Shown here in pieces: positions 9,991 to 49,878 of a stretch of DNA of 64,000 nt; the stretch's first letter is position 1, and each line of letters begins with the position of its first letter. Below the pieces are notes generated by a model. That model made no database searches and had not been told where the DNA came from. It was given only the letters and a program-made list of their open reading frames with translations. The position numbers were made by a program, and so were the translations under genes. The stretch is from Niastella koreensis GR20-10 (GTDB lineage: Bacteria > Bacteroidota > Bacteroidia > Chitinophagales > Chitinophagaceae). The DNA is taken from the NCBI RefSeq assembly GCF_000246855.1, contig NC_016609.1, forward strand, positions 6,646,744-6,710,743, read 5' to 3'.

Positions 9991-10073
9991 AACCAGGTAG
10001 GCACATAGAAACATAACCATCTCGAACCTGTATAATCAAACTGAATTGACTATGCTCCTATGTGGCTATCTGG
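9991..10073. repeat. Inverted octamer repeats between convergent genes
   Basis: Left arm 9991-10016 holds three 8-nt units, CCAGGTAG, GCACATAG and AAACATAA. Right arm 10050-10073, read on the minus strand, holds CCAGATAG, CCACATAG and GAGCATAG. The arms are approximate inverted copies and can fold into one long imperfect hairpin between the ends of the GNAT gene and the deacetylase gene, so it may terminate both transcripts. Confidence 0.7.
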
Positions 10074-10100
10074 CTTAAATAATTTTTATTCTCAGAAGAA

Positions 10101-11126
10101 TTATTGCAATATTTTATCTGCCTTTTTAACGGCTTTGGGGGTAGTCTCTTGAACCAGGTAAGTATCATATTCGCCCATATTCCAGCTGGTCATTCCATAT
10201 TTTTGCTGGCACTTTTTGAATTCCTTCAGCAACACTTCCAGGCTTTGTAAATTCTGTTCAGGGTAATCACCAAAATTTTCGGGGTGCCACCACAGGTGAT
10301 ATACTTGTTTGCGTTGTGCCGCAATGCGGATCTCCTGGCACGATCTGCGTAATCTCATTTTATTGGCCAGTTCCGATTTCGGGCTCCAGGGCCGTAAGAA
10401 CCGGCTTGCAGGCAATTGCAGCGGTTCACCTGGAGTTACTTTAATAGCGCTTAACGGATAAGAAGTTCGTACCCCACCAACCTGAATGTAAGCGTCGGCT
10501 GTACGGAATATCCTGCGCATCAATCCGGCGCCGCCATTGGTAACCGGCGACCAAAACCAGCCACTGGGGTTTGAACGAACCGTTTTAACCCCATTGTCGT
10601 AACAGATCTTCAAATATTCGGGGTTGAACTGGTTACGCGGAAACACCAGCGAACGCATGGGTGCATTAAACTTTTGGGCTGCTTTAACGGCCGCTTTCAA
10701 ATCGGCGTCGAAAGCCATTTTCTCCCGTTGTTCTTCCAGGCAATAGTAATGGCTGAACGTGTGTGTAGCCAGTTCCTGTCCCGGGTACTTCATAATCATG
10801 GCTACTTCTTCAGGAGCAAAATGCGCCCATTGATATTGCTGGTCCATTCCATGTTGGCGAACCCATTTATAGGCTGAATATTTTTCTACTGCATAATCAG
10901 GCTCTACAGAAGGAGTGAAAGTCTCCCATTCCTGGCGGTTAGCGGCAAACAAGCTACCTACTGTTGCCCAGGTTACATGCACATCATATTTGCTGAACAG
11001 TTCCAGCATTTGTGGAACTATGCGTAACGTATTTTTATAGCAGGCTTCCCGCTGCTGACGGTCTCTTTTATCAAATACACCCCAGTGCAATTCAAAATCG
11101 AGCGATATGGTGAATATCCCTTGCAT
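10101..11126 (-). CDS. Polysaccharide deacetylase family protein
   Basis: A 341-aa cytosolic-looking NodB-fold protein with no signal peptide. FTISLDFELHWG (about 5-16) supplies the first acidic metal/catalytic residues and ATHTFSHYYC (about 118-127) the metal-binding His pair; VFPRNQFNPEYL and HLWWHPENFGDYP complete the family pattern. Members of this subgroup occur in Bacteroidota polysaccharide clusters and probably deacetylate a HexNAc of the repeat unit or its precursor. A run of AGTTCTA-like heptamers follows the opposite side of its start codon (11132-11165). Confidence 0.85.
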   Translation of the reverse strand: MQGIFTISLDFELHWGVFDKRDRQQREACYKNTLRIVPQMLELFSKYDVHVTWATVGSLFAANRQEWETFTPSVEPDYAVEKYSAYKWVRQHGMDQQYQWAHFAPEEVAMIMKYPGQELATHTFSHYYCLEEQREKMAFDADLKAAVKAAQKFNAPMRSLVFPRNQFNPEYLKICYDNGVKTVRSNPSGWFWSPVTNGGAGLMRRIFRTADAYIQVGGVRTSYPLSAIKVTPGEPLQLPASRFLRPWSPKSELANKMRLRRSCQEIRIAAQRKQVYHLWWHPENFGDYPEQNLQSLEVLLKEFKKCQQKYGMTSWNMGEYDTYLVQETTPKAVKKADKILQ

Positions 11127-11131
11127 ATGTC

Positions 11132-11201
11132 AGTTTTAAGTTCTTAGTTCTAAGTTTAGAGTTATTTTATTTCAGGGCTTTTCGTGAAACAGCAAACGTG
11201 G
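11132..11201. repeat. AGTTCTA-like heptamers and a TCGTGAAAC motif
   Basis: 11132-11165 reads as successive 7-nt units resembling AGTTCTA. It is followed at 11181-11201 by TTCGTGAAAC-AGCAAACGTGG, closely related to sequences at 47491 and 49801. The segment lies between the polymerase-like gene and the deacetylase gene. No function visible. Confidence 0.55.
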
Positions 11202-11245
11202 CTCGCGATCTTTGAGATTAATAATTACCTTGCGTTGCCCGCATT

Positions 11246-11336
11246 CCCTTTGCCCTTTGCCCTTTGCCCTTTGCCTATTGCCTATTGCCTATTGGCTATT
11301 GGCTATTGGCTATTGGCTATTGGCTATTGGCTATTG
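11246..11336. repeat. 13-copy heptanucleotide tandem array
   Basis: Thirteen perfect 7-nt units run without interruption: CCCTTTG four times (11246-11273), CCTATTG three times (11274-11294), GCTATTG six times (11295-11336). Each block differs from the next by one or two bases, which suggests stepwise mutation and expansion. The right end lies inside the coding sequence of the Wzy-like gene and supplies its last codons and its TAG stop at 11317-11319. Confidence 0.95.
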
Positions 11337-26763: not shown

Positions 26764-26781
26764 CTTTAAAATTTTATGCCG

Positions 26782-26838: not shown

Positions 26839-26841
26839 GCC

Positions 26842-34898: not shown

Positions 34899-34978
34899 AA
34901 AGTAATTGTTTAGAGCACATTTTTCACAAGGTTACAATTTGTTATGGTTACATACTCAAATATCACCAGCAAATTCTT

Positions 34979-34992: not shown

Positions 34993-34995
34993 AAA

Positions 34996-35031
34996 AATGT
35001 TGCAAACATTGCCCTTAATTCTCAATCTTTG
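34996..35031 (+). promoter_or_regulatory. Second operator-like palindrome and lacI-type promoter
   Basis: AATGTT-GCA-AACATT (34996-35010) has perfect 6-bp arms. It overlaps TTG at 35000-35002, which with AATCTTTG at 35024-35031 (21-nt spacer) forms a one-mismatch Bacteroidota promoter. A regulator bound here would block its own promoter. Confidence 0.5.
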
Positions 35032-35048
35032 CAAGGGAAGGCTACTAT

Positions 35049-36065: not shown

Positions 36066-36116
36066 TAAATACATTATTACCCTTTTGTAAAGCATACAGC
36101 CCGTAATTAACAATTA

Positions 36117-36148
36117 TTTGTAACCTTCGCTTATCGTTAGTATGTTTA
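36117..36148 (+). promoter_or_regulatory. Promoter of the rhomboid gene
   Basis: TTTG at 36117-36120, 20-nt spacer, TATGTTTA at 36141-36148 (one mismatch to TAnnTTTG). The ATG at 36168 follows 20 nt later, giving a short leader. Confidence 0.5.
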
Positions 36149-36167
36149 TTATAATGAACTTATTCAT

Positions 36168-36995: not shown

Positions 36996-37036
36996 CCACT
37001 CCGCTAACGGATTACCTTACCAGAACAAATTGTGTT

Positions 37037-37996
37037 ATGAAGAAATTGAGGCTCATGCCATTCGTTTTTCTTTTGCTGACCCTTCCGTTTATGGCGGCAG
37101 CAGAAAACGATACCACCTATACTGAAACAAATGTTGTGTTACATACAGCCAGCGGTGACATCGCCGGCACCTTAACCATTCCGGCCAACGCACCGGCAAA
37201 ATTACCGGTGGCGCTGATTATCGCCGGTTCGGGCCCAACCGACCGCAATGGCGATAACCCCATGATGAAGAATGAAAGCCTGATGAAACTGGCGTACGGA
37301 CTGGCGGCCAAAAACATTGCCTCATTGCGGTTCGACAAACGAGGTATTGGCGAAAGCAAAGCTGCCATGAAAGCCGAAGCCGATCTGCGGTTTGAAGATT
37401 ACATCAATGATGCCCGCAGCTGGATAGAATGGTTGAAGAAAGATCAACGCTTTTCAAAAGTATTTGTAGCCGGTCACAGTGAGGGTTCGCTTATTGGCAT
37501 GATCGCCGCCCACAACACCGCGCATGGGTTTGTTTCCATTGCCGGGGCCGGCCGTTCGGCCGATAAAATTCTGAAAGAACAACTGGCAGCACAACCAGCC
37601 ATGGTAAAAGACAGCAGCTATCCTATTATCGACAGCCTGGCGCTGGGCAAAACGGTTACCAGTGTGCCCAAAATGCTGTTTGCGTTGTTCCGGCCAAGTG
37701 TTCAGCCATATATGATCTCCTGGTTTCACTACGACCCACAGACTGAAATAAAAAAACTCACCATTCCGGTTTTAATTTGTCAGGGCACCAACGACTTGCA
37801 GGTGAAGGAAGAAGATGCTAACCTGCTGGCCAAATCGAATACAAATGCCCAATTGTTGCTCATTAAAAATATGAATCATATCTTCAGGATAGTGGAAGGC
37901 GATAGAAAAGACAACCTGGCCACTTATATAACACCAACGCTGCCCATCAGCGAAGAACTGGTAAACGCCATCTCCGCGTTTGTTAGTAAACATTAA
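37037..37996 (+). CDS. Secreted alpha/beta hydrolase
   Basis: A 319-aa hydrolase with a signal peptide (MKKLRLMPFVFLLLTLPFMAAA). IAGSGPTDRNGDNP is the oxyanion-side motif of this Bacteroidota family, VAGHSEGSLIG (Ser at about 148) is the nucleophile elbow, CQGTNDLQV holds the likely Asp and NMNHIF the His. Such enzymes are often annotated as acyl aminopeptidase- or esterase-like. Whether it deacetylates glycans is open; its nearness to the sugar-degradation genes makes an esterase role possible. Confidence 0.85.
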   Translation: MKKLRLMPFVFLLLTLPFMAAAENDTTYTETNVVLHTASGDIAGTLTIPANAPAKLPVALIIAGSGPTDRNGDNPMMKNESLMKLAYGLAAKNIASLRFDKRGIGESKAAMKAEADLRFEDYINDARSWIEWLKKDQRFSKVFVAGHSEGSLIGMIAAHNTAHGFVSIAGAGRSADKILKEQLAAQPAMVKDSSYPIIDSLALGKTVTSVPKMLFALFRPSVQPYMISWFHYDPQTEIKKLTIPVLICQGTNDLQVKEEDANLLAKSNTNAQLLLIKNMNHIFRIVEGDRKDNLATYITPTLPISEELVNAISAFVSKH

Positions 37997-38019
37997 GGCC
38001 AAACCGGTCCCTTACCGCG

Positions 38020-38230
38020 ACTTTATAGTGACCTTATAGCGATATAGGTTCACTATGCTACCACTATACCTCCCCGATACCCCCCTTCACTCCTTTGCAA
38101 CTCCTGCGCTCCCCTCTTTGCCTGCACTTTTTACCCCGATGCGCCTTCAGCCGCGGAAGCAGCAACGAGGTAGCAACAAGGTACCAATGAGATATCAATG
38201 AGGTATTATTGAGGTTTCAACTTCAGTAGT
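38020..38230. repeat. Period-11 degenerate repeats upstream of the AraC gene
   Basis: Right part: five consecutive 11-nt units, AGCAACGAGGT, AGCAACAAGGT, ACCAATGAGAT, ATCAATGAGGT, ATTATTGAGGT (38161-38215). Left part: ACTTTATAGTG, ACCTTATAGCG, then ACTATGCTACC, ACTATACCTCC, CCGATACCCCC (38020-38084). The ACCTC of the left units can face the GAGGT of the right ones. These occupy most of the 398-bp gap after the hydrolase gene; no coding frame is seen there. Confidence 0.7.
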
Positions 38231-38293
38231 AAGCGAGGTCTGCATTTCTGCAAAAAAGGTTGCATCACCCCTGATAAAAAATTGCATATGTTA

Positions 38294-38307
38294 CGGAAAC
38301 GTTAGCG
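38294..38307. promoter_or_regulatory. LacI-family operator, site B
   Basis: CGGAAACGTTAGCG, about 90 nt before the AraC-type start. It matches site A (34979, reverse strand) at 11 of 14 positions and site C (55129, reverse strand) at 12 of 14. It is followed by a small TAGCATT/AATGCTA hairpin. Confidence 0.45.
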
Positions 38308-38394
38308 TAGCATTTTTTCTCCAATGCTAAAAGTTAAGCTAATTTACCCCTGATTGCAGTATTATTTGCCATTTGAAGTAAAAAGAGCTTAATT

Positions 38395-39267
38395 ATGAGG
38401 CCCCAGTTATTAAAAGTATCCAAGGAGATCCGCCACTCCTTCAGCGTTCGGCAGGATCTTGTTCCCTACATCAATAACCGCTGGCACTACCACCAGGAGG
38501 TTGAATTGATCCACTTTAGAAAGGGCGAAGGCACCCAGTTTGTAGGCGACAGCATCAGGCATTTTAAAAACGGTGATGTAGTTCTGGTAGGCTCAGGCCT
38601 GCCGCATTACTGGCGTTTTAATGACACCTATTTTAGTGAAGATGAACCCACTTCTGCCGATATAAGGGTATGCCATTTTAACGAAAACTTTTGGGGAGAA
38701 CAATTCTTACAACTGCCGGAAAACATTAAGATTAAAAACATCCTTGAAAAAGCGAAGCGTGGTTTACAAATCACCGGTAAAACCCGCGTGGTTGTGGCAG
38801 AATTCCTGGATGTATTGTTAAATACTGAAGGACCGCACCGCATTTTACTGCTTACCCAGGCTTTAACGGCTATTGCAGAATGCCCTAATTTACAGTCATT
38901 ATCGAGCATTGGGTTTAAACACGAAATGCCTGAAAACGAGAACGACCGTATCAATGCCATTTACGACTTTTCGCTAAAAAATTTTAAACGTCCCATTCAG
39001 TTAGATGAGATCGCTTCCGTAGCCAACATCAGTCCCAACTCATTTTGCCGGTATTTTAAATCAAAAACAAGCAAAACCTTTTCGCAGTTCCTGATTGAGG
39101 TACGGGTAGGCTATGCCTGTAAATTACTGATCGAAAACAAAATGAGCATTAAACAGCTGTGCTTTGAAAGCGGGTTCAACAACTTTACAAGTTTTCATAA
39201 ATATTTCAAACTCATCACTGGCAAAAGCCCGTTGAGTTACCAGAAAGAATTTATCCAAAAACAATAA
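38395..39267 (+). CDS. AraC-family transcriptional regulator
   Basis: A 290-aa regulator. The N-terminal ~150 residues are a cupin-like sensor (HYHQEVELIHFRKGEGTQFVGD, GDVVLVGSGLPHYWR). The C-terminal ~100 residues contain two helix-turn-helix units, LDEIASVANISPNSFCRYFKS and IKQLCFESGFNNFTSFHKYFK, with the GKSPLSYQKE end typical of AraC/XylS. It precedes the PUL by 20 bp and is the likely activator of some of its genes. No HTCS or ECF sigma/anti-sigma pair was found in the window. Confidence 0.92.
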   Translation: MRPQLLKVSKEIRHSFSVRQDLVPYINNRWHYHQEVELIHFRKGEGTQFVGDSIRHFKNGDVVLVGSGLPHYWRFNDTYFSEDEPTSADIRVCHFNENFWGEQFLQLPENIKIKNILEKAKRGLQITGKTRVVVAEFLDVLLNTEGPHRILLLTQALTAIAECPNLQSLSSIGFKHEMPENENDRINAIYDFSLKNFKRPIQLDEIASVANISPNSFCRYFKSKTSKTFSQFLIEVRVGYACKLLIENKMSIKQLCFESGFNNFTSFHKYFKLITGKSPLSYQKEFIQKQ

Positions 39268-39286
39268 TTCACGCTACATTATTGGT

Positions 39287-40807
39287 ATGATTACACACCA
39301 TCGGCAACTCCTTGTTGTTTCGACAGCTATTGTGCTGGCTACCGGTTTTCAACCGCCGGCCGGCAAATGGGAATCGAAATTTGTTACCCTCACCGCCAAC
39401 GAAACTTTACAATATCACCCCGACGAAAAAGGAAACATTTTGCCCGATTTTAGCCGTGTAGGCTATTACCAGGGCGATCAGCCCATTCCTACCGTACCTG
39501 TTGTAAAAACCATTTCAGCGGGTACTGATAACAGCCAGGCCATTATCCAGGATGCCATCGATGAAGTAGCAAAAAGAACACCCGACAACAATGGTTTTCG
39601 CGGCGCCATCCTGCTGAAAAAAGGCGCATACAACATTCCCGGCACCATTCGCATTACCGCCAGCGGCATTATTCTGCGCGGCGAAGGCGATGGGGAGAAC
39701 GATACCAAACTGATCGCTACGGGAAACACCCAACGATCACTGGTTTATATTTCCGGCACGGGCAATTTTGAAGAACAACCCGGCACCCGCGTAGCCATCA
39801 CCGATGCATATGTGCCCACGGGCGCCACTTCTTTCGGGGTGGAGTCGGCGGCCAACTTTAAAGCGGGCGATAAAGTTATTTTATTCCGCCCCGGTACCGA
39901 TGCCTGGATAAAAGACCTGAAGATGGATGCCATCGATAGCCGCGACGGCACCAAACAATGGCAACCTAAGGAATATGACCTGCGTTATGAACGCATTGTT
40001 ACCAAAGTGCAGGGCAATACCATTACGCTCGACAACCCGGTGGTAATGTCGCTGGAAAAACAATACGGCGGCGGTTTTATTTATAAGTACAATTTCAATG
40101 GCCGCTTAACAAAAGTAGGCATCGAGCATTTGCGTTGTGAATCTACCTACGATAAAGACACGTCTGAAGACCATGGCTGGACAGCCATTCAATTCAATAA
40201 AATTGAAAACGGCTGGGTGCGGAATGTAACGTCCCGCTATTTTGGCTATTCCTGTGTTCATTTGGATGATCTGGCCAAATGGATCACCGTCACCGACAGC
40301 CGCTGTCTCGATGCCAAATCACAAATTACAGGTGGCCGCCGCTATTCATTTAATAACGACGGACAACAAAACCTGGTCATGAATTGCCAAACTACCGAGG
40401 GCCGTCATGATTATGTTACCGGCGCACGCGTTTGCGGACCCAACGTTTTTTACAATTGCACGGCCAAACAAACACATGCCGATATTGGCCCGCACCACCG
40501 CTGGGCTTCAGGCACTTTGTATGACAATATTGTAACCGATGGCGAAATAAACATCCAGGACCGTGGTAACTGGGGTAGTGGTCATGGTTGGGCAGGCGTT
40601 ACGCAAATACTCTGGAACTGCACGGCCAAACGCGCTGCCGTTCAAAGCCCCTGGGCTGATGGAAAAAACTATTGCATCGGGCTGAAAGGCGATAAATATG
40701 ATGGCAGATTAAAAGGAAGACCTGATGGGGAGTGGGAAGGGCAAAACAAGGATGGTCTTGAACCGGGATCTCTTTATATGACGCAATTGAATGCTCGAAG
40801 GAAATAG
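39287..40807 (+). CDS. Secreted right-handed beta-helix (pectate-lyase-like) protein
   Basis: A 506-aa protein with an N-terminal signal peptide (LLVVSTAIVLATGF). After an ~80-residue lead, AIIQDAIDEVAKRTPDNNGFRGAILLKKGAYNIPGTIRI and GIILRGEGDGENDTKL are typical first coils of a pectate-lyase-type beta-helix; the middle shows repeated short strands (WVRNVTSRYFGYSCVHL). It probably cuts or rearranges a uronate-containing glycan. I do not recognise the exact family. It is 20 bp past the AraC gene, and its stop runs straight into a heptamer repeat. Confidence 0.65.
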   Translation: MITHHRQLLVVSTAIVLATGFQPPAGKWESKFVTLTANETLQYHPDEKGNILPDFSRVGYYQGDQPIPTVPVVKTISAGTDNSQAIIQDAIDEVAKRTPDNNGFRGAILLKKGAYNIPGTIRITASGIILRGEGDGENDTKLIATGNTQRSLVYISGTGNFEEQPGTRVAITDAYVPTGATSFGVESAANFKAGDKVILFRPGTDAWIKDLKMDAIDSRDGTKQWQPKEYDLRYERIVTKVQGNTITLDNPVVMSLEKQYGGGFIYKYNFNGRLTKVGIEHLRCESTYDKDTSEDHGWTAIQFNKIENGWVRNVTSRYFGYSCVHLDDLAKWITVTDSRCLDAKSQITGGRRYSFNNDGQQNLVMNCQTTEGRHDYVTGARVCGPNVFYNCTAKQTHADIGPHHRWASGTLYDNIVTDGEINIQDRGNWGSGHGWAGVTQILWNCTAKRAAVQSPWADGKNYCIGLKGDKYDGRLKGRPDGEWEGQNKDGLEPGSLYMTQLNARRK

Positions 40808-40877
40808 TTCAGAGTTCCAAGTTCAGAGTTCAGAGTTTGAGGATAACCAGGAACCCGGAACTCTGAACCTGGAACTA
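40806..40877. repeat. Inverted heptamer hairpin between convergent genes
   Basis: Left: AGTTCAG, AGTTCCA, AGTTCAG, AGTTCAG, AGTTTGA (40806-40840). Right: GGAACCC, GGAACTC, TGAACCT, GGAACTA (40850-40877). 40813-40831 pairs with 40858-40876 at 18 of 19 positions. It starts within the stop codon of the beta-helix gene and ends 10 bp before the stop of the convergent YhcH-like gene, so it is well placed to terminate both. Confidence 0.85.
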
Positions 40878-40886
40878 ATAACTTTA

Positions 40887-41501
40887 TTAAGATGCCGCTC
40901 TCACTTTAATAACAAGTTTCTTAACTACTTTATTCCCTCCCGGTGTAATATTCGGTCTGTGTGCTTCGCCGGGGAAAAAGATGATGAAGGTACCTGCGGG
41001 GATGTTGTAGAATTTGCCGGGTGCGGTATAATTGGCAACATCTTTTGTTTCGTCATAAGGTTTGGTAGTGGAAGTTACTTCTGCCACAGGCCATTTACCC
41101 ATTCTTTCTTCGCCAACCAATACGCACTGTACATCGATGTACTTTTTGTGCGATTCCCAATTGGTTTTATCAAAATCTTTGCTGGGATCTTCCGTTACCG
41201 AGGCAAATACATTATCGCCATCGATGGGATATTTTCCCTTGGCTATTGTTTGCAGGTTTTGCTCTTTCAAAAAGGCAAAGGCTTTGTCCCAATATACTTT
41301 ATTGATGCGGTACTGACGGGCAAACTCTTCTTTATTGATAGATTTATGCGGCTTCAGCGGCGCGCCATTCATCCATTCTTTTTTCTTGAACCATTTTTCC
41401 GCACTCTTTTTTGTGATCGTAGTATCGGCTCCGGATTGAGCATTTACAATTACAAAAGAAAAGGCGACTAATAAGAACGATAACAGGAATCCTTTTTTCA
41501 T
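40887..41501 (-). CDS. Secreted YhcH/YjgK/YiaL-family protein
   Basis: A 204-aa protein with a clear signal peptide (MKKGFLLSFLLVAFSFVIVNAQ). The rest is a DUF386-type cupin barrel: WESHKKYIDVQCVLVGEERM, AGTFIIFFPGEAHRPNI and VVKKLVIKV are the conserved segments. YhcH/YiaL proteins are normally cytosolic and tied to sialic acid or uronate/ketose metabolism, and EbgC is a beta-galactosidase accessory. An exported version beside glycosidases suggests a sugar mutarotase-like role in the periplasm; this is inference. Confidence 0.85.
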   Translation of the reverse strand: MKKGFLLSFLLVAFSFVIVNAQSGADTTITKKSAEKWFKKKEWMNGAPLKPHKSINKEEFARQYRINKVYWDKAFAFLKEQNLQTIAKGKYPIDGDNVFASVTEDPSKDFDKTNWESHKKYIDVQCVLVGEERMGKWPVAEVTSTTKPYDETKDVANYTAPGKFYNIPAGTFIIFFPGEAHRPNITPGGNKVVKKLVIKVRAAS

Positions 41502-41534
41502 ACGCGTAAATTAAGTAGGTGTAAATATAAACAA

Positions 41535-41560
41535 ATGTGTCCCGATTTATCGGGACACAT
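41535..41560 (-). terminator. Terminator of the glycosidase operon
   Basis: ATGTGTCCCGA (41535-41545) pairs perfectly with TCGGGACACAT (41550-41560) across a 4-nt loop, with A/T runs on both sides. It follows the GH29 gene ending at 41607 and precedes the YhcH-like gene. Confidence 0.75.
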
Positions 41561-41606
41561 TTTATGTTTCGTTTCATGTTATTACAGACCAGACAAGTGC
41601 GCTTTA

Positions 41607-43043
41607 TCACTCTTTCATAGTACCCAGACCGCTGGCGCCGGCGCCGGAAAACCGCTTGTCGGCCACAGCACCCTTTACCTGCAGTTTTATTACGCTGGCA
41701 ATTTTATCGGGAGCCTGATCGGGCACGGTAATTACCAGTCCGTCATTTGAAGCGGCCGTGGCCAGCTTTTTACCACCGGCTAACAGCGTGGCCGAAAGAA
41801 CCGGTTGGGTCAACCCGGGTACTATCAGTTTTTTATCGGTTGGCCAGTTAAATACGCTCAGGTATAATGTGGTGTTACCGTTCTGTTCTTTTTTGGTGCA
41901 ACGTCCCCAGGCCAATGCGGGTAAGGGACTGGCTTTTGTACCATATATAGCGTCACCGTTTACTTTCATCCACGCGCCTACCTGTTGCAGGCGGCTGATG
42001 CTTTCATCGGGGAAGGTGCCATCTGGTTTGGGCCCCACATTCAACAAATAGTTACCGCCTTTTGAAGCTATATCTAATAAGTTTCTAATAATAACCTCTG
42101 TGCTTTTCCATTCGTGGTCGTCTTTTTTAAAACCCCAGGTACCGTTCATGGTCATACAGGTTTCCCAGTCTTTACCATCCAGTTCGCTTTCTTTGGGAAT
42201 GCGTTGCTCCGGTGTTTTGTAGTCACCTTGAAAGTTGGGACGTTTTAACCGGTCGTTGGTGATGATGTTTGGTTGCAATGCCAGGGCTGCATTTAATTTT
42301 TCGGCAAACTCATCGGTCATACCCGTAGGCGTATCCCACCACAGTACGGCAACATCGCCATAATTGGTGAGCAATTCCTTTACCTGGGGAACCGCTACTT
42401 CATCGATGTATTGCGCCATGGTTTTAGTGGTTTGGGCGGGGTCCCAATGACCTTCATGAGCGGCTGTATACGAATCTATTTTTGCTGAATCGGGATTGGC
42501 CCAGCCTTCGCTGGCAACCTTACGCGCAGCAGCGCCACCCGGGTTGTTCCAGTCCTGCGCCTGTGAATAATAAAAGCCCAGCTTCATGCCGTATTTGCGG
42601 CAGGCTTCGGCCAGCGGCTTCAAAAGGTCTTTGCCATACGGTGTGGCATCTACCATATTCCATTTGCTGGCATTTGATTTAAACAAAGCAAAACCATCGT
42701 GGTGTTTGGCGGTGATCACAATGTATTTCATGCCCGCTTCTTTGGCCAGCTTTACCCAGGCATCGGCATCGTATTTAACGGGATCGAACTGTTTCGCGAA
42801 TTCCTGGTAATCGGCTACGGGGATTTTTCCGCGGTTCATGATCCACTCTCCTATGCGCTTAATGGGCTGACCATTATAATAACCAGCCGGCACGGAATAC
42901 ACGCCCCAGTGAATGAACATCCCAAACCGGGCTTCGCGCCACCACTCCATGTGTTTGTCGTGCGAGTCCTTCACTGCTGTTTGTGCAAATGTGGTATGCA
43001 ACAAACAACAAAACAGCACCAATGCAGCAACTACTTTTTTCAT
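41607..43043 (-). CDS. GH29 alpha-L-fucosidase
   Basis: A 478-aa exported protein (signal peptide MKKVVAALVLFCCLLHTTFAQ). WWREARFGMFIHWGVYSVPAG and GMKYIVITAKHHDGFALF are GH29 substrate-site motifs. VAVLWWDTPTG contains the nucleophile Asp near residue 236. ASKGGNYLLNVGPKPDGTFP closes the catalytic barrel, with a C-terminal beta domain after. It removes terminal alpha-L-fucose. A second, longer GH29 lies two genes upstream in the same operon; different linkage preference is likely. Confidence 0.95.
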   Translation of the reverse strand: MKKVVAALVLFCCLLHTTFAQTAVKDSHDKHMEWWREARFGMFIHWGVYSVPAGYYNGQPIKRIGEWIMNRGKIPVADYQEFAKQFDPVKYDADAWVKLAKEAGMKYIVITAKHHDGFALFKSNASKWNMVDATPYGKDLLKPLAEACRKYGMKLGFYYSQAQDWNNPGGAAARKVASEGWANPDSAKIDSYTAAHEGHWDPAQTTKTMAQYIDEVAVPQVKELLTNYGDVAVLWWDTPTGMTDEFAEKLNAALALQPNIITNDRLKRPNFQGDYKTPEQRIPKESELDGKDWETCMTMNGTWGFKKDDHEWKSTEVIIRNLLDIASKGGNYLLNVGPKPDGTFPDESISRLQQVGAWMKVNGDAIYGTKASPLPALAWGRCTKKEQNGNTTLYLSVFNWPTDKKLIVPGLTQPVLSATLLAGGKKLATAASNDGLVITVPDQAPDKIASVIKLQVKGAVADKRFSGAGASGLGTMKE

Positions 43044-43136
43044 ATAGAATTCCTTTGTTTTATTTGCAACTAACGCAATATTACTTTTTGTGTTGGTACT
43101 CCTTCCGGCAATTTATTCAGCTATTTTACCATTAAT

Positions 43137-44306
43137 TTACTTTGATCTTAATAGCGCTTCTAAATAATAATAATCCCCATAGTTAAGCGGAACATCCACT
43201 TCACTATTAGCAGGTTTTGATCCGGTACTGTGCAACAGGATAAAACCTTTGTTCTCTCCTATGGCCGACCGGTAATTTTTAGTAAGATTTTGAAGGATGG
43301 TATTGGCTACGGTAAGGTACTCCTTTTTGTTCTTACTATATTTGGCTAACTCAAACAAGCCCGAAGCAATTACCCCGGCAGCAGAAGCATCGCGTGGTTC
43401 GTTGGGAATGCCCGGTGCATTAAAATCCCAGTAAGGAATTTTATCAGCAGGCAAATTGGGATGGTGTAAAATGAATTTGGCCACATTTTCTGCCTGACGC
43501 AGGTAGGCCACATTTTTTGTTTCGCGATAGCACATGGTATAACCATACAATGCCCATCCCTGTCCACGTGCCCAGGCGCTTTCATCGGCATAACCCTGGT
43601 GGGTGTTTCTTTTTACTACTTTGCCGGTTGCCGTATCATAATCCACTACGTGATAAGAACTATAATCGGGCCTGAAGTGATTTTTCATGGTTGTGTTAGC
43701 ATGGCTCACGGCTATTTTATAAAAAGAAGAATCACCGGTAAGCCGGGTAGCCGCAAATAACAATTCCAGGTTCATCATGTTATCGATAATAACAGGATAA
43801 CCCCATTGTTCCTTGTGATGATCCCATGAACGAATACAACCTACTTTTGGATTGAACCGGGTTGATAATGTTTTAGCCGACTGGATGATCACATCTTTAT
43901 AAGCCGCATCTTTGGTAAGCTGGTAACCGGTACCATAACTGCAGTATATTTTAAAACCCATGTCGTGGGTTCCGCCATTGAGCTTTTCTTTTTCTTCCCT
44001 TGCAGTATATTCTTCTGCCTTTGCTTTCCACTCCGGTTTATGGGTGTAGGCATACAACATCCATAATTCACCGGCAAAGAACCCGCTGGTCCAGTCTTTG
44101 GCAGGCACCAGTTTCAGGTTTCCGTTTTCAATAGTACGTGGCGATACCAGGTCCGGATGGTTTTCTCTTGCCCTGGCAACACTGTCGAGCATTACCTGGG
44201 TTTGTTTCTCCGCATCTGCAAATACAGGCGCCAGTTTTACCTGCTGCGCCTGCGACAATAATCCTGCAGCCAACAAAGCAACTGTTCCACCAAGTGTTTT
44301 ATACAT
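43137..44306 (-). CDS. GH88/GH105 unsaturated glucuronyl hydrolase
   Basis: A 389-aa (alpha/alpha)6-barrel protein with a short signal peptide. IDNMMNLELLF near residue 173 and DASAAGVIASGLFEL near 307 carry the two catalytic Asp residues; ARGQGWALYGYTMCYRET is the family's other hallmark. It hydrates the 4,5-unsaturated uronic acid left by polysaccharide lyases. GH88 is preferred over GH105 by the DNMMNLE form. It is 15 bp from the upstream GH29 gene. Confidence 0.92.
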   Translation of the reverse strand: MYKTLGGTVALLAAGLLSQAQQVKLAPVFADAEKQTQVMLDSVARARENHPDLVSPRTIENGNLKLVPAKDWTSGFFAGELWMLYAYTHKPEWKAKAEEYTAREEKEKLNGGTHDMGFKIYCSYGTGYQLTKDAAYKDVIIQSAKTLSTRFNPKVGCIRSWDHHKEQWGYPVIIDNMMNLELLFAATRLTGDSSFYKIAVSHANTTMKNHFRPDYSSYHVVDYDTATGKVVKRNTHQGYADESAWARGQGWALYGYTMCYRETKNVAYLRQAENVAKFILHHPNLPADKIPYWDFNAPGIPNEPRDASAAGVIASGLFELAKYSKNKKEYLTVANTILQNLTKNYRSAIGENKGFILLHSTGSKPANSEVDVPLNYGDYYYLEALLRSK

Positions 44307-44321
44307 TCTTTTTTGTTTTCG

Positions 44322-46184
44322 TTATTTCTCCAGTAATTGTAATTCCAACAGTTTCATCAGTTCCCCTTTCACTATGGAAACCGGTTTAATGCTCAGTTCG
44401 TGTGTGCCGGCAGGTAATTCAAGGGTATCCATATTATCAAGGGTCAACACTTTTGTATCGGAGCCGCTGCCGGTTATCTTTATTTCTTTTGAATGAGTGC
44501 CGCTTTGCAACACAAATGTGCCACCATTGCCTTCACCGGCAAGATATTTCATATTTATGGTAAACGTAGCCGGTTTTGTAGTGCGGAAAGTCCAGCTTAA
44601 CCACTGGTTGTTCGATTTCCAGTTCTGCACATAATACTTGCCCGTCTTACCATCGCCATAGCTAAATTTGTCGCCATGTAATTGCGCATCGAATGCCAGC
44701 AATTGCTGCACAGGAACGTTGGCAGAAAATACCCGCACCGAATCTGTTTGTAACTTTCCTTTTAATTCAACAGTAATTACCGTATTTAAGGTATCGGGCA
44801 TTTTTGCCGGCAGGCTGATCACCACATCATTTGCATTTACGCGGTTGGCAGTTAATGCCTTTTTACCATCCAACAGGGATACTTTGGTAAAGCCGCTTTG
44901 CAAGCCGCCTACATAGAGTTTATTATCTGCCGGCCAGTTAAAAACATGCAGGTAAAGTGTATTGCCTTTCAATGTGGACACACCCCAGCTTTGCAAGGGC
45001 AGCGGACTGGCCACAGTACCATAAATGCTTTCGCCGTTCTTATCCATCCAGGCGCCAATGCCTTTTAAGATTGCCAGGTCTTTGCTATCAAAGGCACCAT
45101 CACCTTTAGGCCCGATATTCATCAACAGGTTGCCGCCGCGTGAAGCGGCTTTCGCCAGCAAATGCACAAAGGCAATAACGGGTTTATGGCTGTTATCGAA
45201 TTTATGATAGCCATACGATTCATTGGTGGTAGGGATCGCTTCCCAATCGCCGGTTACGGGGAAAAACTCCAGCGGACGATCAGCCGTATTTTTATAATCG
45301 CCAAAGCTTATTTCCGCACTTCTTGCCAACCGGCCATTTACTACCACATGGTTATCTGCTTCGCGAATGGCTTTCAGAATGCGAATGTTTTCTGATAGTG
45401 GTAATTTACTGGGAGTATCGAACCACAGGATATCGGGATGGTATTTTGCCAGCAGTTCTTTTATTTGCGGGATCGCTTTTTCGTTTACATATTTCTGCGC
45501 CTTGGGTAACAACTCAGGATGCAGGTTGAACCAGTTTACGCCACCATACAATCCTTTATCGCCACCGGGATTACTGTACTCCCAATCATTGCCCGGTGCA
45601 TCGGGATGTTCCCAGTCGAACGCATGTGAATAATAAAACCCAAACTTGATCCCATATTTATGACAGGCTGCAGACAGCTCCACCATGGGATCGCGTTTGA
45701 ACGGGGTTTGTTGCATGATGTTGAAATCGGAAACTTTTGTATCGAACATCGCAAACCCGTCGTGGTGTTTGGAGGTAATGATCATATACTTCATACCGGC
45801 TTCCTTTGCATGCCGCGCCCAGGCATCGGCATCAAACAACACGGGATTGAACTGATGGGCCAATGCCAGGTAATCGGCCCGGGTAATTTTTTCCTTGCGC
45901 ATCAGGTGCTCGGCATAACCATCTACTTTCTGCCCTTTCCATTCCCCACCGGGCAATGAATAAATACCCCAGTGAATGAACATGCCAAAACGCGCCTGCT
46001 GCCACCAGGTTATGCGTTCATCGTGGTTTTTCATGGAGGCAGTCCACCAGCCGCTTACGGCTTCATCTATAGCCTGCTGATCACGTTGCCGGCCACGGTT
46101 GAACATTTCTTTGTCTTCATCTCCTTGCGAAAACGCTCTTAGGGTTATGAAGAAGCTGGATAGTATAATTAGTTTATAATTCAT
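44322..46184 (-). CDS. GH29 alpha-L-fucosidase with C-terminal beta domain
   Basis: A 620-aa exported protein (signal MNYKLIILSSFFITLRAFS). WWQQARFGMFIHWGIYSLPGG and AGMKYMIITSKHHDGFAMF are the fucose-pocket motifs. DILWFDTPSKLPLS holds the nucleophile Asp near 254. ASRGGNLLMNIGPKGDGAF ends the barrel. An added ~120-residue C-terminal region (KTGKYYVQNWKSNNQWLSW onward) looks like a carbohydrate-binding-type beta-sandwich, absent from the shorter GH29 of this operon. Confidence 0.94.
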   Translation of the reverse strand: MNYKLIILSSFFITLRAFSQGDEDKEMFNRGRQRDQQAIDEAVSGWWTASMKNHDERITWWQQARFGMFIHWGIYSLPGGEWKGQKVDGYAEHLMRKEKITRADYLALAHQFNPVLFDADAWARHAKEAGMKYMIITSKHHDGFAMFDTKVSDFNIMQQTPFKRDPMVELSAACHKYGIKFGFYYSHAFDWEHPDAPGNDWEYSNPGGDKGLYGGVNWFNLHPELLPKAQKYVNEKAIPQIKELLAKYHPDILWFDTPSKLPLSENIRILKAIREADNHVVVNGRLARSAEISFGDYKNTADRPLEFFPVTGDWEAIPTTNESYGYHKFDNSHKPVIAFVHLLAKAASRGGNLLMNIGPKGDGAFDSKDLAILKGIGAWMDKNGESIYGTVASPLPLQSWGVSTLKGNTLYLHVFNWPADNKLYVGGLQSGFTKVSLLDGKKALTANRVNANDVVISLPAKMPDTLNTVITVELKGKLQTDSVRVFSANVPVQQLLAFDAQLHGDKFSYGDGKTGKYYVQNWKSNNQWLSWTFRTTKPATFTINMKYLAGEGNGGTFVLQSGTHSKEIKITGSGSDTKVLTLDNMDTLELPAGTHELSIKPVSIVKGELMKLLELQLLEK

Positions 46185-46205
46185 TATAAGTTCGTTCGTT
46201 TTTGA

Positions 46206-46294
46206 GTTATTTAGTTATTAGGTTATTAAGTTCTTAGGTTTTTGTCCTCGGGTAAACTTATGAACTCAAGAACTTAAGAACCTATGAACTTTTA
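46206..46294. repeat. Inverted octamer repeats
   Basis: Left: GTTATTTA, GTTATTAG, GTTATTAA, GTTCTTAG, GTTTTTGT (46206-46245). Right: AACTTATG, AACTCAAG, AACTTAAG, AACCTATG, AACTTTTA (46255-46294). The arms are inverted copies and the last unit contains the stop codon of the lyase-like gene. Position suits a terminator or mRNA-end stabiliser between that gene and the GH29 gene. Confidence 0.8.
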
Positions 46295-47476
46295 GAGCCA
46301 GATTAGCGGATGACGTACCGGTAAATTCCTGATTACTTCTTCTACTTTCGGTTCATGATCCAGCTTTTTCCAGGTAGTGAACCAATCATTATTGCCATAG
46401 GCATTGGCGCCGAACAGTAAGAAAGGCTGGGCTACCGGCCAGTTGTCCCAATACATTACATCGGGTTGTTTAGGCCATTTGCTTTTATCGGCAACAAAAG
46501 TATACAGGTATTCTACTCCTTTGCGAATGTTACGTCCATCGGGTGTGCTGAAGTTCCACAGGTTGTCTTCTTTGGTCGAAAGAATCTGGCAGATGGTGGT
46601 CATGGCATCGAGGTTAAAGATCGAATAGCCATAAGGTTTTGTTCTGCGCAGTTCCTGGGGAAAGCTTCCATCGGGCGCCATCTGGTTGGGCAGTAACACG
46701 GTTTTATACCGGTCGCGGCAAAACTGCATCAGCTTTTCATTATGGGTAAATTTAGCAAAGCAGGCGGTTTGCATCGTCCAGCAGGTGCCATGGTTATTGG
46801 CGGCATTCATTTCGTCTTTACCATACTGATGCGTTGTTAACCATTGCAGGTATTGTTCAAACCAATGCCTGATAGCTTCCAGCAATTGATGGTCCATGCC
46901 TTTGGCATTTTCCATTGTTTCCAGTCCCTGCACTACTTCCATCAGTTGAATGGTATCTATGATGCCAATGCCTCTGCCCGTGAACCGGCCTTTGATGGCC
47001 TGGGCATATTGCAGGTTCGGATTCATCATAGTAGCCTCCTCTACAAACCAGGCTTTGCAATGTTGTAATGCCTGCTTTACATATTTATCGTCGTGCGTAA
47101 GCTCGTATGCAGAAGCCAGTGCGCCAACGATCTGGCTAAACCGGATCATGGCCTGCCGGTGCGCCACAAAATTATCGGGGTTGCTCATGCCATCGCGCTG
47201 CACATAAGGACTGTCAACCGACTGTGGATTGGGCCACCAGTAATCACCTTCTGAAAAGAAATCGTGTTTACCGCCTGCACTTCTTGGCGAACTTTGCGCC
47301 GTTACCGTAACCGGTTGTTGCTGCATAGCCCAACCTGCCTGCTCCAGTATTTGCCTGCGAAGGGTTTTCATTACTTCCGCTTTGTAGCTGGCGGCGGTGT
47401 CAATAGCTGGCCGCCATTGGATGTTGGCTATAGCGGTAAGCAATAGCCAGGAAAGGAGTATTCGTTTAATATGCAT
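46292..47476 (-). CDS. Alginate-lyase-superfamily polysaccharide lyase, PL38-like
   Basis: A 394-aa exported (alpha/alpha)-barrel protein. GGKHDFFSEGDYWWPNP with RDGMSNPD (about 68-103), FSQIVGALASAYELTHDDKY, and NAANNHGTCWTMQTACFAKF near residue 227 match the Alginate_lyase Pfam group, whose Asn-His-Gly and Trp residues lie in the catalytic groove. The NNHG-C-W form and length fit PL38-type lyases acting on glucuronate-containing polymers, but PL family cannot be fixed by eye. Its products would feed GH88. Confidence 0.8.
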   Translation of the reverse strand: MHIKRILLSWLLLTAIANIQWRPAIDTAASYKAEVMKTLRRQILEQAGWAMQQQPVTVTAQSSPRSAGGKHDFFSEGDYWWPNPQSVDSPYVQRDGMSNPDNFVAHRQAMIRFSQIVGALASAYELTHDDKYVKQALQHCKAWFVEEATMMNPNLQYAQAIKGRFTGRGIGIIDTIQLMEVVQGLETMENAKGMDHQLLEAIRHWFEQYLQWLTTHQYGKDEMNAANNHGTCWTMQTACFAKFTHNEKLMQFCRDRYKTVLLPNQMAPDGSFPQELRRTKPYGYSIFNLDAMTTICQILSTKEDNLWNFSTPDGRNIRKGVEYLYTFVADKSKWPKQPDVMYWDNWPVAQPFLLFGANAYGNNDWFTTWKKLDHEPKVEEVIRNLPVRHPLIWL

Positions 47477-47490
47477 ACTAAGTTTTTAAA

Positions 47491-47640
47491 ATCGTGAAAC
47501 GGCAAACGTGAAAAAGTTCCCGTAATTAGAGCCTCGCTATAAAATTCAACCTGTTAACTTGTCAACGTGTTAACCCGTCAACGTCCTACCTCTTACGTCC
47601 TATTTCTTTTCCTTTATCAACTCTATCAACCCTGTCAACT
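47491..47640. repeat. Degenerate 8-9-nt repeats, copy 1
   Basis: ATCGTGAAACGGCAAACGTG (47491-47510) is followed by units such as TTAACTTG, TCAACGTG, TTAACCCG, TCAACGTC and then CAACTCTAT, CAACCCTGT, CAACTCCCT. It shares CCTTTATCAACTCTATCAAC with copy 2 at 49801. It fills the spacer between the lyase-like and GH31 genes. Confidence 0.7.
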
Positions 47641-47643
47641 CCC

Positions 47644-49788
47644 TCACTTCGTCATAAACTCAAACGTCACACTCCCCACCGTATTCGGTTTCCCTTTCAC
47701 AGGAGCACTAATAGCACCTCGCCACTTCCCCGCCTTATCCTTCTCTACTTTTATTTCGCGCCAGCTGTAATCGCCTTTTTCATAATTATAGGTTTCGCCA
47801 TCATCGTCGTACAGCTGGTACGAACCGGGCTTTTCGCCATAAAAGCGAACGGTGAGATCTACTTTTTCTCCGGCGGCTGGTGCATGTAACATAGGTTTCA
47901 TTAAGGGTATAATTGCGCCGTCTTTTACATACACGGGTATTTTATCCAATCCAGGCGTAACAGTTATTACTTCGCCATCACCGGCAAAGGCGCCCGTGTA
48001 GAAATCGTACCACCGGCCTTTAGGCAATACCACCTTACGTGTTTTTTGACCGGTGAACAAGGGCGCTACCAGTAAATAATCACCTGCCATGTATTGATCC
48101 TTGATCTCTTTTGACGCCGCTTCAGCATACGGGTTCTCTTCGAGGTTAGCGCTGCCATTTTCTTTTTTTGATTCAGGTACAAAACCTTCTTCGAGGTTCA
48201 TGGCCCTGAAGGGCGGAATGCCCTGAAAATGATACCGGGCAAATGCCGTGTACCAGTAAGGCATCATTTGCATGCGTAATAACGCCAGTTGTTTTATAGG
48301 TTCGGCCACATCCTCGTACGACCAGGGTTTGGTGCCGCTGGCCCAGGCATTGATCATGGCCATGGGTGAAAACACTACTGTTTGAAACCGGCGTAACCAT
48401 TCTTCCGATGATTTGGAAGCCCTTGCTTCGGGCGTCCACAACACACCGGCAAAACCGCTGTTGATAAGCGCCGTTATAAAATCTTCATGGTTATAATAAT
48501 CGTTGTAAATAACATATGGGAAAGACGCACCGCCGGCATTGGAACCCCGCACCAGGCCAAAGGTCCTTTTATTCTGCTGGTGATATAATTCTGCACTGTA
48601 ACGCTGTAACAATACGCCAAAGGTCTGGCGCATTTGTTCGGCAGTTACGCCTGAGGGAAAGGTAGCCACATCGGGCCACAGGTAATAGTCATAACCATCT
48701 ACTTCATCTATCTTATAGCCACTCACGCCTATATTGACCTGGTTATTTTTTAACTGGTCAAAAAACAACGTCCGGCCCTGTTGGGTAGTAAGGTCCGGCA
48801 CCAGTCCGTTCCATACAGTGTGTGAACCGCTGTAGGGAACAATGGCTTTATAAAACGGCGCCTCGGGCGATACATAGGGATTGGTCCAGAGGTTTACACG
48901 GATATTTTCTTTTAACAGGTCCTGCACAAAACCAGCCGGATTGGGATAACGGGTGCTGTCCCAGGAAAAAGTACAGGGATAACTTTTACTTTGCCAGCCC
49001 GGTTCCAACCCAATAAAATCAAGCGGAAAACCTTTTTCCCGGAATGCTGCCACTTCTTTCTTCACTTCGTCGGCGGTATACAACGTTTTTACGCGTTGCG
49101 TGAAACCCAGGCCCCAGCGGGGCGGTAAACAACCGCCGCCATTAAATAAGTTAAAGCGGCGAACGGCATCCAACGGAGTAGGGCCACCGAATACATATAC
49201 TTCTACCCCGGCTGCCGGCACCAGTATTTCCACTGCATCTGAATAGGGACGTGAGTTCCAGCTTTTATCGGTATTCCGGTCTTTGGCAACCGGCGCGTTC
49301 TTACTGTCTTTACGTACTGCAGTACCTGCATACACATTTAAATACCGGGCGGAGTTGATGAATACGCCATATCCTTTTGAGGAAACATAAAAGGGCGATG
49401 GCGCATGTGTTCTGCCATTGTCTTTTCCGCCATAGTGGTCAACATGTAATTGCAAGATCTTTCCCCGTTGGTGAACGGTTTGAAAGTTCAATCCAAAACC
49501 ATATAGCTGTTCTTCTTTTTGTAAAGGGAACCGCAGATAGGTTTTGCCATCTATTACTTTTATGGAGATCTCTGTTTGATCTAATGGAAATGATGCCTGG
49601 GTAATGGCCGATAGCGCTTCCTTATTAGGCGTAGCGCCTGAAGCTTTTAACAGGTCATAATTTTCGGGCACCCCGGCTACCGCCTTCCATACTCCCGGGG
49701 CGGTTTCGGACCAGCTTACCTGCGCGTAGGTGAGGCTGATTTCGAATACAAATGCAATAATTAATACGAATCGCTTTGCTATATACAT
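47644..49788 (-). CDS. GH31 glycoside hydrolase
   Basis: A 714-aa exported protein (MYIAKRFVLIIAFVFEISLTYA). An N-terminal beta-sandwich leads to the TIM barrel: GLGFTQRVKTLYTADEVKKEV, FPLDFIGLEPGWQSK and VSGYKIDEVDGYDYY, where the Asp of KIDEVDG (about 358) is in nucleophile position. YVIYNDYYNHEDFITALINSGFAGVLWTPEARAS replaces the common RSA-like stretch before the acid/base. This is a less common GH31 subgroup; alpha-xylosidase, alpha-glucosidase or alpha-galactosidase activity is possible. Confidence 0.87.
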   Translation of the reverse strand: MYIAKRFVLIIAFVFEISLTYAQVSWSETAPGVWKAVAGVPENYDLLKASGATPNKEALSAITQASFPLDQTEISIKVIDGKTYLRFPLQKEEQLYGFGLNFQTVHQRGKILQLHVDHYGGKDNGRTHAPSPFYVSSKGYGVFINSARYLNVYAGTAVRKDSKNAPVAKDRNTDKSWNSRPYSDAVEILVPAAGVEVYVFGGPTPLDAVRRFNLFNGGGCLPPRWGLGFTQRVKTLYTADEVKKEVAAFREKGFPLDFIGLEPGWQSKSYPCTFSWDSTRYPNPAGFVQDLLKENIRVNLWTNPYVSPEAPFYKAIVPYSGSHTVWNGLVPDLTTQQGRTLFFDQLKNNQVNIGVSGYKIDEVDGYDYYLWPDVATFPSGVTAEQMRQTFGVLLQRYSAELYHQQNKRTFGLVRGSNAGGASFPYVIYNDYYNHEDFITALINSGFAGVLWTPEARASKSSEEWLRRFQTVVFSPMAMINAWASGTKPWSYEDVAEPIKQLALLRMQMMPYWYTAFARYHFQGIPPFRAMNLEEGFVPESKKENGSANLEENPYAEAASKEIKDQYMAGDYLLVAPLFTGQKTRKVVLPKGRWYDFYTGAFAGDGEVITVTPGLDKIPVYVKDGAIIPLMKPMLHAPAAGEKVDLTVRFYGEKPGSYQLYDDDGETYNYEKGDYSWREIKVEKDKAGKWRGAISAPVKGKPNTVGSVTFEFMTK

Positions 49789-49800
49789 ATGGCTTTTTAA

Positions 49801-49878
49801 ATCGTGAAACGTGAAAGTCTTGTCAACCCGTCAACGTGTTAACTTGTCAGCCTTTATCAACTCTATCAACCTCCTTCC
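49801..49878. repeat. Degenerate 8-9-nt repeats, copy 2
   Basis: ATCGTGAAACGTGAAAG opens the element, followed by GTCAACCC, GTCAACGT, GTTAACTT, GTCAGCCT and CAACTCTATCAACC. Start motif, unit type and end motif match copy 1 at 47491, so the two spacers flanking the GH31 gene are related. The right end abuts the stop of the GH95 gene's reading direction. Confidence 0.7.

Follow-up and report, generated by a model that had tools for sequence, protein, structure and literature searches.

Facing arrays of degenerate 7-, 8-, and 9-nucleotide units as candidate dispersed palindromic elements in the spacers of Niastella koreensis

The intergenic spacers of Niastella koreensis GR20-10 are rich in short tandem arrays of degenerate units, which sort into families shared between loci and often stand as facing arms of a hairpin. 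We describe these arrays from a stretch of 64,000 nucleotides (nt), called the window here (C1:6646744-6710743 of a genome that is a single contig of 9,033,684 bases), from samples of the remaining genome, and from related genomes. Within a family, the units combine a core with free slots, and their length is characteristic of that family. The arrays are abundant in spacers, families recur between loci, paired arrays face each other, loops recur at unlinked intergenic loci, arrays lie preferentially just after stop codons, and they persist in many orthologous spacers while the units of both arms are replaced. On balance, we consider it somewhat probable that these are dispersed noncoding palindromic elements, comparable to hairpin-forming doublets of repetitive extragenic palindromic (REP) sequences (REPINs) or to miniature inverted-repeat transposable elements (MITEs), in which short arrays of degenerate 7-, 8-, and 9-nt units form the arms around a loop.

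The main sample comprised the window and 60 further stretches, together 1.26 Mb or 14% of the genome, with 630 spacers totaling 184 kb (window included), and a first sample comprised the window and 40 stretches of 20 kb. Genes were called with a home-made codon-score caller using ATG starts, in which stops are surer than starts, and array counts vary with the score threshold (12 by default, 8 to 10 where stated). A segment scan of the 630 spacers identified 251 arrays with periods of 7 (148 arrays), 8 (73), 9 (14), 11 (13), and 12 nt (3), while shuffles yielded about 5; by proportion, the whole genome would hold about 1,800. In the first sample, 698 kb of coding DNA contained 19 arrays, of which 3 had a period of 7 or 8, compared with 167 arrays in 122 kb of spacers. 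The same excess is seen in the self-match of sequences at fixed lags, which reached z = 8.3 at lag 7 and 4.2 at lag 8 in 32 window spacers and z = 21 and 9.0, respectively, in 392 spacers from the 40 other 20-kb stretches, where lags 14 and 21 were high too. Signals at lag 3 (z = 11) and lag 6 (z = 5.4) in these 392 spacers are probably due to uncalled coding DNA. In contrast, 291 coding sequences were in deficit at lags 7 and 8 and displayed 3-nt periodicity alone.

An earlier note on this stretch, made from the letters alone, had pointed to runs of short units at ten places. These fall into nine spacers, and all nine exceeded 1000 dinucleotide shuffles of the same spacer. The probability was 0.001 (none of the 1000 shuffles reached the observed value) for the spacers at 11132/11246, 26782, 33450, 38020, 40806, 46206, and 47491, 0.007 for that at 49801, and 0.016 for that at 9991, which is the weakest, with one 8-nt arm of score 10. 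Five of six control spacers gave values from 0.067 to 1.0, and the sixth (54975-55243) gave 0.02 through a 13-nt match. Tandem Repeats Finder listed short-period arrays at most of the ten places, the exceptions being 9991 and 49801.

The arrays have the properties of long simple-sequence repeats, i.e., tandem units of 5 to 11 nt beyond chance, mainly intergenic and most commonly heptameric. The accessible literature cites polymerase slippage as the explanation for the dominance of heptamers among bacterial tandem repeats, and the idea that the polymerase footprint favors 7 nt goes back to Mrazek et al. 2007, as cited in passages of PMC4679880 and PMC4692102. Slippage alone, with arrays purged from genes and promoters and with family likeness arising from composition and mutation bias, would fit the predominance of period 7, the long near-perfect runs, the nearly array-free coding DNA, and the depletion of arrays between divergent genes given below. 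It predicts neither facing arms of one family, nor recurrent loops at unlinked loci, nor fixed 8- and 9-nt families, nor arms that change together, and we regard it as unlikely. The long near-perfect runs do fit slippage inside the arms, and this part of the model in the earlier note is retained.

Unit families were identified by comparing each unit profile with arrays at other loci in any rotation and on either strand, with the 95th percentile of a column-permuted null as the cutoff (first sample). Beyond this cutoff, a match at another locus was found for 47% of 101 arrays with 7-nt units, 84% of 44 arrays with 8-nt units, and 10 of 10 arrays with 9-nt units. All 9-nt arrays fall into a single family (GTTGAYANN), those with 8-nt units mainly into three (GTTRACNN, AACYTA-type, and GMTAATNW), and those with 7-nt units into many, in addition to 30 further small clusters. 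Across the loci of one family, some unit positions are fixed and others free; in the per-spacer test, the core letters counted for 9-nt slots are preset by the search expression, and core conservation is read from the between-locus profile comparison alone. Since the arrays sort into families of characteristic length, unit length goes with family. Unit sequence had been thought unrelated between sites, which holds for the 11-nt units and not for the 8- and 9-nt units or about half of the 7-nt arrays. Unit length had been thought constant within a site, and yet the spacers at 47477-47643 and 49789-49880 carry 7-, 8-, and 9-nt families side by side. Growth of each hairpin from a different seed, as the note had proposed, is at odds with families common to several loci, their characteristic lengths, and recurrent loops.

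Neighboring arrays face each other more often than not. Among 83 neighboring pairs, a purine-rich array was followed by a pyrimidine-rich one in 47 and the reverse in 16, with 20 pairs of the same polarity; the alignment of the two arms was better inverted in 61 and direct in 19. Facing pairs of the same period occur in 53 of the 630 spacers. Six chosen examples gave strong folds as single-stranded DNA (z = -3.1 to -7.8), as the earlier note would have it. Of the five sites where it had described inverted arms, those at 26782, 40806, and 46206 do carry opposite arrays of one family, while 33450 consists of four 7-nt arrays around a terminator-like hairpin and 9991 is an imperfect hairpin. At another locus (L044:3491-3850), a 120-bp block that includes facing arrays of 7-nt units occurs about three times in head-to-tail succession.

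The arms had been taken for inverted copies of each other, made by template switching in addition to slippage. This account is compatible with arms of one family, with their joint change between species, with the strong folds of the six examples, and with a correlation of slot letters between the arms around one recurrent loop, core B (r = 0.72, P = 0.013; 11 of 16 copies had enough units). The order of units speaks against it. Over 60 same-period pairs, the unit order of arm 2 did not mirror that of arm 1 (unit permutation z = 1.1), whereas simulated inverted copies at 5, 15, and 25% divergence gave z = 21, 20, and 17 (all at least 16.7). Restricting the test to the 48 pairs at 60% identity or more gave no mirrored order either (P = 0.32), nor did the core-B elements show it, of which 14 of 16 had units that could be counted (19 of 39 slots matched, 19.3 expected). 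With this positive control, the unit-order test led us to reject template-switched inverted copies, and template switching would be saved only if later slippage reshuffled the units; we consider it very unlikely.

Some loops between the arms recur at other loci. The stretch around core A (11175-11246) recurs at 3 other loci with 83 to 85% identity over 53 to 60 nt, each time between 7-nt arrays, and 7 further loci have weaker or partial matches. Core B, searched with up to 3 mismatches, has 14 copies in N. koreensis and 2 in N. yeongjuensis, none in a reversed control, and none in 8 other genomes of the genus. All 16 copies are intergenic and have 7-nt arrays scoring at least 8 on both sides. 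GTSAGT-type units occupy both sides in 14 of the 16 (L171 and L172 have other left arms), and one N. yeongjuensis copy lies in the ortholog of the window spacer at 47477-47643, which in N. koreensis holds a different, composite element. The left-arm motif of that composite, CGTGAAACGNNAAACG, has 39 exact copies in the genome and none for the reversed pattern. Of the 29 distinct loci that were read, 26 have an array downstream of the motif and 4 have one upstream; with the same expressions, pairs of 8-nt units were found 10 times downstream and 0 times upstream, and pairs of 9-nt units 8 and 0 times. A TCGCG-like stretch lies within 35 nt of CGTGAAACGNNAAACG at 15 loci downstream and 1 upstream.

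The position of the arrays relative to genes is not random. Of 186 arrays located between codirectional genes, 55 come within 5 nt of the stop codon upstream (10.3 ± 2.7 under random placement), with no excess at the next start (9 of 186 within 5 nt, 10.2 at random). Arrays are present in 114 of 423 spacers between codirectional genes, 27 of 91 between convergent genes, and 18 of 116 between divergent genes, the last being depleted relative to all others (141 of 514; P = 0.007). The simplest account of retention after stops and depletion between divergent genes is that insertions are tolerated in 3' flanks, at a distance from promoters, and a generic role at the 3' end of RNA is possible. The earlier note had called the hairpins terminator-like. 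Of the 63 opposite-polarity pairs, 57 satisfied a strict definition of polarity and were counted; 5 of these have an outward T-run no more than 15 nt away, compared with 351 of 2,773 random spacer points (13%), and an intrinsic terminator role was rejected on this ground.

Sequenced relatives offer ready orthologous sites that visibly differ between species. The named relatives of one window protein include Niastella yeongjuensis, N. soli, N. populi, N. caeni, N. vici, and two Longitalea species, and synteny with eight sister genomes is extensive. Counting N. koreensis and arrays of score 10 or more, arrays are present in 7 of 9 species at 11127-11334, 6 of 9 at 26764, 6 of 6 at 40808, 5 of 7 at 46185, 4 of 7 at 47477, 5 of 7 at 49789, and 2 of 9 at 9922. 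The three control spacers without arrays, one of them 15 bp long in the window (44307-44321), remain free of them in 6 of 6, 7 of 7, and 5 of 5 species. As judged by eye, the sites at 26764 (AACGC) and, for the most part, 46185 retain their unit core, whereas it has been replaced at 40808, 47477, and 49789; unit number also differs at orthologous sites, in a comparison limited to species-level relatives. The turnover of units that the note had proposed is thus seen in both unit number and unit sequence.

Two further sites were chosen because N. koreensis carries core B there. In the spacer upstream of YbgC, arrays occur in 10 of 10 species, begin a few nucleotides from the upstream stop codon, and comprise five unit types (by eye). 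Seven species were readable at the spacer upstream of an epimerase gene, and 5 of them have arrays, with 7- and 8-nt units; nine species were fetched, of which N. populi was not found by the motif, a metagenome-assembled genome was truncated there by the end of its contig, and the N. vici flank did not look orthologous by eye. We compared left and right arms across eight sites, with the two outermost arrays of a spacer (first and last) taken as its arms, and excluding species with fewer than 2 arrays and sites with fewer than 3 such species. Scores between an element's own arms summed to 502, compared with 410 ± 19 when arms were permuted among the species at one and the same site; the observed sum was a value reached in 0 of 5,000 permutations. 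The arms therefore change together, chiefly at YbgC (19.0 versus 13.6), 40808 (13.8 versus 7.2), and the epimerase spacer (11.2 versus 5.8).

These comparisons also bear on the alternative that the arrays are selected regulatory sites, with the fixed core as the site bound by a DNA- or RNA-binding protein. A protein-binding role has been suggested for TAACTGA repeats in the accessible text of PMC4679880, and the conserved core with free slots in the 8- and 9-nt families would suit such a role, as would the array adjoining a start codon (11132-11163) that is kept in sister species. The replacement of units at orthologous spacers and the preference for stop codons instead of starts speak against it, and we hold this alternative to be highly improbable.

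In the dispersed-element reading, copies would spread within the genome by transposition or conversion, through a trans-acting enzyme or recombination. Slippage would then alter unit number, and exchange between arms in any register would keep their unit content alike without preserving unit order. Because 7-, 8-, and 9-nt arrays coexist, length goes with family, and facing arms surround recurrent loops, dispersal can be tested beside slippage.

Several observations weigh against this reading. Ranked against right arms of the same period elsewhere, an element's own right arm falls in the best 5% in just 17 of 83 pairs (median rank, 0.20). Joint change of the arms comes from three of the eight sites; there is none at 11127 or 32927, and the gain is small at 37997 (+0.8), 46185 (+1.2), and the site labeled Y1up (+1.1). 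A recurrent loop was not found for most families, and no strong inter-arm k-mer is common to most arrays. TCGCG is 3.7-fold enriched near arrays, yet other 6-mers of TCGCGA composition are commoner there (12 versus 5), and it was dismissed as a special inter-arm signal. The 11-nt units are not shared between loci (0 of 10 beyond the cutoff in the first sample); these arrays may be ordinary local tandem repeats that need not belong with the hairpin elements. Conversion could have overwritten older hairpins at the core-B loci, which would then not be insertions. Array-free short spacers of 17 to 18 bp exist at orthologous places in N. vici and N. yeongjuensis, and no mobilizing enzyme, excision product, clean filled/empty pair, or target-site duplication has been shown, duplications not having been sought systematically.

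A candidate for the enzyme is a gene of the HUH (Y1) type in the aro operon (L169:1435-1863, - strand; product of 142 amino acids), which might mobilize the hairpins as REP-associated tyrosine transposases (RAYTs) are thought to mobilize REPs. Y1_Tnp has just 2 matches in the genome, the aro-operon gene is single copy in 10 of 10 genomes of the genus, and in 9 of 10 it is preceded by a spacer with facing arrays, N. yeongjuensis lacking them (the spacer of one genome, L193, was read by eye). Its motif YLDKQEEHH fits subclass 1.2 (Y---Q--HH), a class assigned by motif only; according to the accessible part of PMC6006769, this subclass has no known REPs listed and is found mostly in Cyanobacteria and Bacteroidetes. 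Facing same-period pairs are so common (53 of 630 spacers) that one such neighbor is weak evidence, and the W motif of the gene is WE, not the listed WQ. In other genera of the Chitinophagaceae, 29 Y1 matches were read as loci, of which L210, L213, L219, L222, and L225 had no readable HUH frame and 7 were of other or unclear class by motif; the remaining 17 carried the subclass 1.2 signature, and none of these genes had a 7- to 9-nt array of score 10 within 300 nt. One genome with 7-nt GTTGACA arrays (G060) has one weak Y1 match. The association is suggestive within the genus and not borne out in other genera; the gene was set aside as the mobilizer, a role that we consider decidedly doubtful.

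No class-2 RAYT (Y---NP) with its own repeats was identified: the weak second Y1 match, L170 (YIHENP), is class-2-like by motif, and the adjoining spacers that were read contain no 7- to 9-nt array of score 9 and one 11-nt array of score 10, while the aro-operon gene with adjoining arrays is not class 2 by motif. Many of the subclass 1.2 HUH-Y1 genes in the other genera (L202-L209, L211, L212, L214-L218, L220, and L224) are flanked by short perfect palindromes, e.g., GTTCCTACGGAAC or GCCCTACGGGC, as noted by eye without counting. A broader proposal is that palindromes armed with tandem arrays form a separate class of nonautonomous mobile DNA, subject to register-free arm exchange and mobilized by subclass 1.2-like HUH-Y1 enzymes, with heptamer arrays in Bacteroidetes and Cyanobacteria as its traces. 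We regard this as distinctly unlikely.

Among the seven sister genomes sampled (20 to 60 kb each), all contain arrays, with lag-7 z values from 2.6 to 9.5; an eighth, N. populi (20 kb), has 2 arrays. The trait is patchy among ten further genomes of the Chitinophagaceae, sampled at 40 kb each and picked since their contig numbers were known from a prior search, and universal spread in the family was rejected. One, from another genus (G064), has strong arrays with different units, including long 7- and 8-nt arrays at L133 and L134 whose units (GTAAGACC and TTAGGTG) were not seen in Niastella; four (G060, G013, G024, and G037) each contain one or two arrays of 7-nt units; and no 7-nt arrays were found in the 40-kb samples of G015, G017, G043, G045, and G054. 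The spaced pattern GTTGAYAN{0,10}GTTGAYA has 455 matches in the N. koreensis genome and 4 when reversed. At least one match occurs in 48 of 60 family genomes, mostly at the control level. Those above control include G035 (74 versus 36), G038 (22 versus 3), G016 (17 versus 7), and G013 (13 versus 2, with 8-nt spacing). The count for G060 is 142 versus 127, its 7-nt GTTGACA arrays filling the control too.

The individual arrays of the window, given here without strand, illustrate this variety. A weak 8-nt array (CTATNNNN) at 10050-10075 (score 10) is the right arm of the imperfect hairpin facing GGTAGGCACATAGAAACATA at 9996-10015; at its place, N. vici has an 8-nt array and N. yeongjuensis a shortened hairpin (hairpins by eye). 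The AGTTCTA-type 7-nt array at 11132-11163 (score 13) adjoins the start codon of a deacetylase gene (10101-11126, - strand), and similar units are found by eye at the same place in several sister species. It is followed by a 7-nt left arm (GTGAAACAGCAAAC) with loop core A (CTCGCGATCTTTGAGATTAATAATTACCTTGC) at 11175-11245, a stretch that recurs at other loci, and by a 7-nt array of CCCTTTG, CCTATTG, and GCTATTG units at 11246-11334 (score 76, P = 0.001). The hairpin at 26778-26840 has arms of 7-nt AACGCNN units (score 22; DNA fold of -19.9 kcal/mol, z = -6.3), with a unit core common to 5 sister species (by eye) and a spacer of 17 bp in N. yeongjuensis. In an 802-bp spacer, 7-nt arrays at 33493-33551 (score 14) lie to the left of an ordinary terminator-like hairpin at 33560-33605 (AAAGCACAAGA...TCTTGTGCTTT), and three 7-nt arrays of the AAAGCYN, GGCAGNN, and GGCARNN types (scores 15, 14, and 11) lie to its right at 33591-33728. 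The 11-nt arrays comprise two weak ones at 38003-38085 (scores 11 and 12) and one at 38156-38215 (GAGGTANYAAY; score 27, P = 0.001).

A left arm of 7-nt GTTCAGA units at 40808-40837 (score 15) starts at the stop codon of the gene at 39287-40807 (+ strand) and folds with its right arm, a 7-nt GAACTCT array at 40845-40875 (score 12), at z = -5.3. The 8-nt arrays at 46198-46243 (AGTTATTA, left arm, score 22) and 46255-46289 (AACTTAAG, right arm, score 17) fold at z = -3.1. The composite carrying CGTGAAACGNNAAACG consists of a 7-nt left arm (CGTGAAACGGCAAACGTGAAA) at 47493-47513, an 8-nt GTTRACNN array at 47548-47582, and a 9-nt GTTGAYANN array at 47612-47639 (score 13 for both arrays, units read on the - strand). 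A second composite at 49800-49870 combines a 7-nt GTGAAAC arm with 8-nt GTTRACNN and 9-nt GTTGATANN arrays (scores 8, 10, and 8; P = 0.002 for the summed score). Another palindromic stretch at 52434-52502 (GACCTGTCAGGT...) has a REP-like look and recurs in several array-free spacers, including the orthologous spacers of N. soli and N. yeongjuensis. Within the window, Rfam gave 0 matches at the gathering score, and the region 33729-49788 contains genes of glycan use by Pfam (mannonate dehydratase, alpha-L-fucosidase, alginate lyase, and GH31).

The earlier note knew of no named element with this behavior. No description of the Niastella array-hairpins was found among the titles and abstract openings that literature searches listed, which is weak evidence of absence given that subscription papers were mostly outside the coverage, and arrays of heptamers with facing inverted pairs have been described in Xanthomonas. 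The comparisons that follow are with the accessible text of the papers cited. The Xanthomonas GGGAATC or (GGGANTN)n repeats (Rehm et al. 2015, PMC4692102) are dispersed intergenic 7-nt arrays, mostly of four units, with conserved and variable unit positions and facing inverted pairs (70 and 75 cases); they lie nearer the upstream gene, are rare between divergent genes, and vary in sequence between sister species. Niastella shares the facing pairs, the proximity to the upstream gene, and the depletion between divergent genes. It differs in having many 7-, 8-, and 9-nt families, recurrent loops, and co-changing arms, whereas Xanthomonas has a single G-rich family, uniform in unit length and with the potential to form quadruplexes; by eye, the sampled array lists contain no family with the GGGANTN unit.

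REPINs of the REP-RAYT system (Bertels and Rainey 2011, PMC3116915; PMC6006769) are, like the Niastella hairpins, inverted doublets dispersed between genes and predicted to form hairpins. REPs are palindromes of 20 to 40 bp (PMC3733652), whereas each arm in Niastella consists of tandem units that vary in number and the mobilizing enzyme is only putative. The TAACTGA heptamers of Beggiatoaceae, Cyanobacteria, and Bacteroidetes (MacGregor 2015, PMC4679880) are likewise sporadic intergenic arrays; they occur in five Bacteroidetes, and indels between two Cyanothece strains are mostly in 7-nt steps. They consist of one heptamer in direct arrays, in the main genome mostly just before starts, while the many Niastella families often follow stops and often face each other. 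A further parallel may be drawn with the P6b stem of the Nostoc tRNA-Leu intron (PMC3488679), where degenerate heptamers of varying copy number also pair into a hairpin, at one intron locus in Nostoc and in dispersed elements in Niastella.

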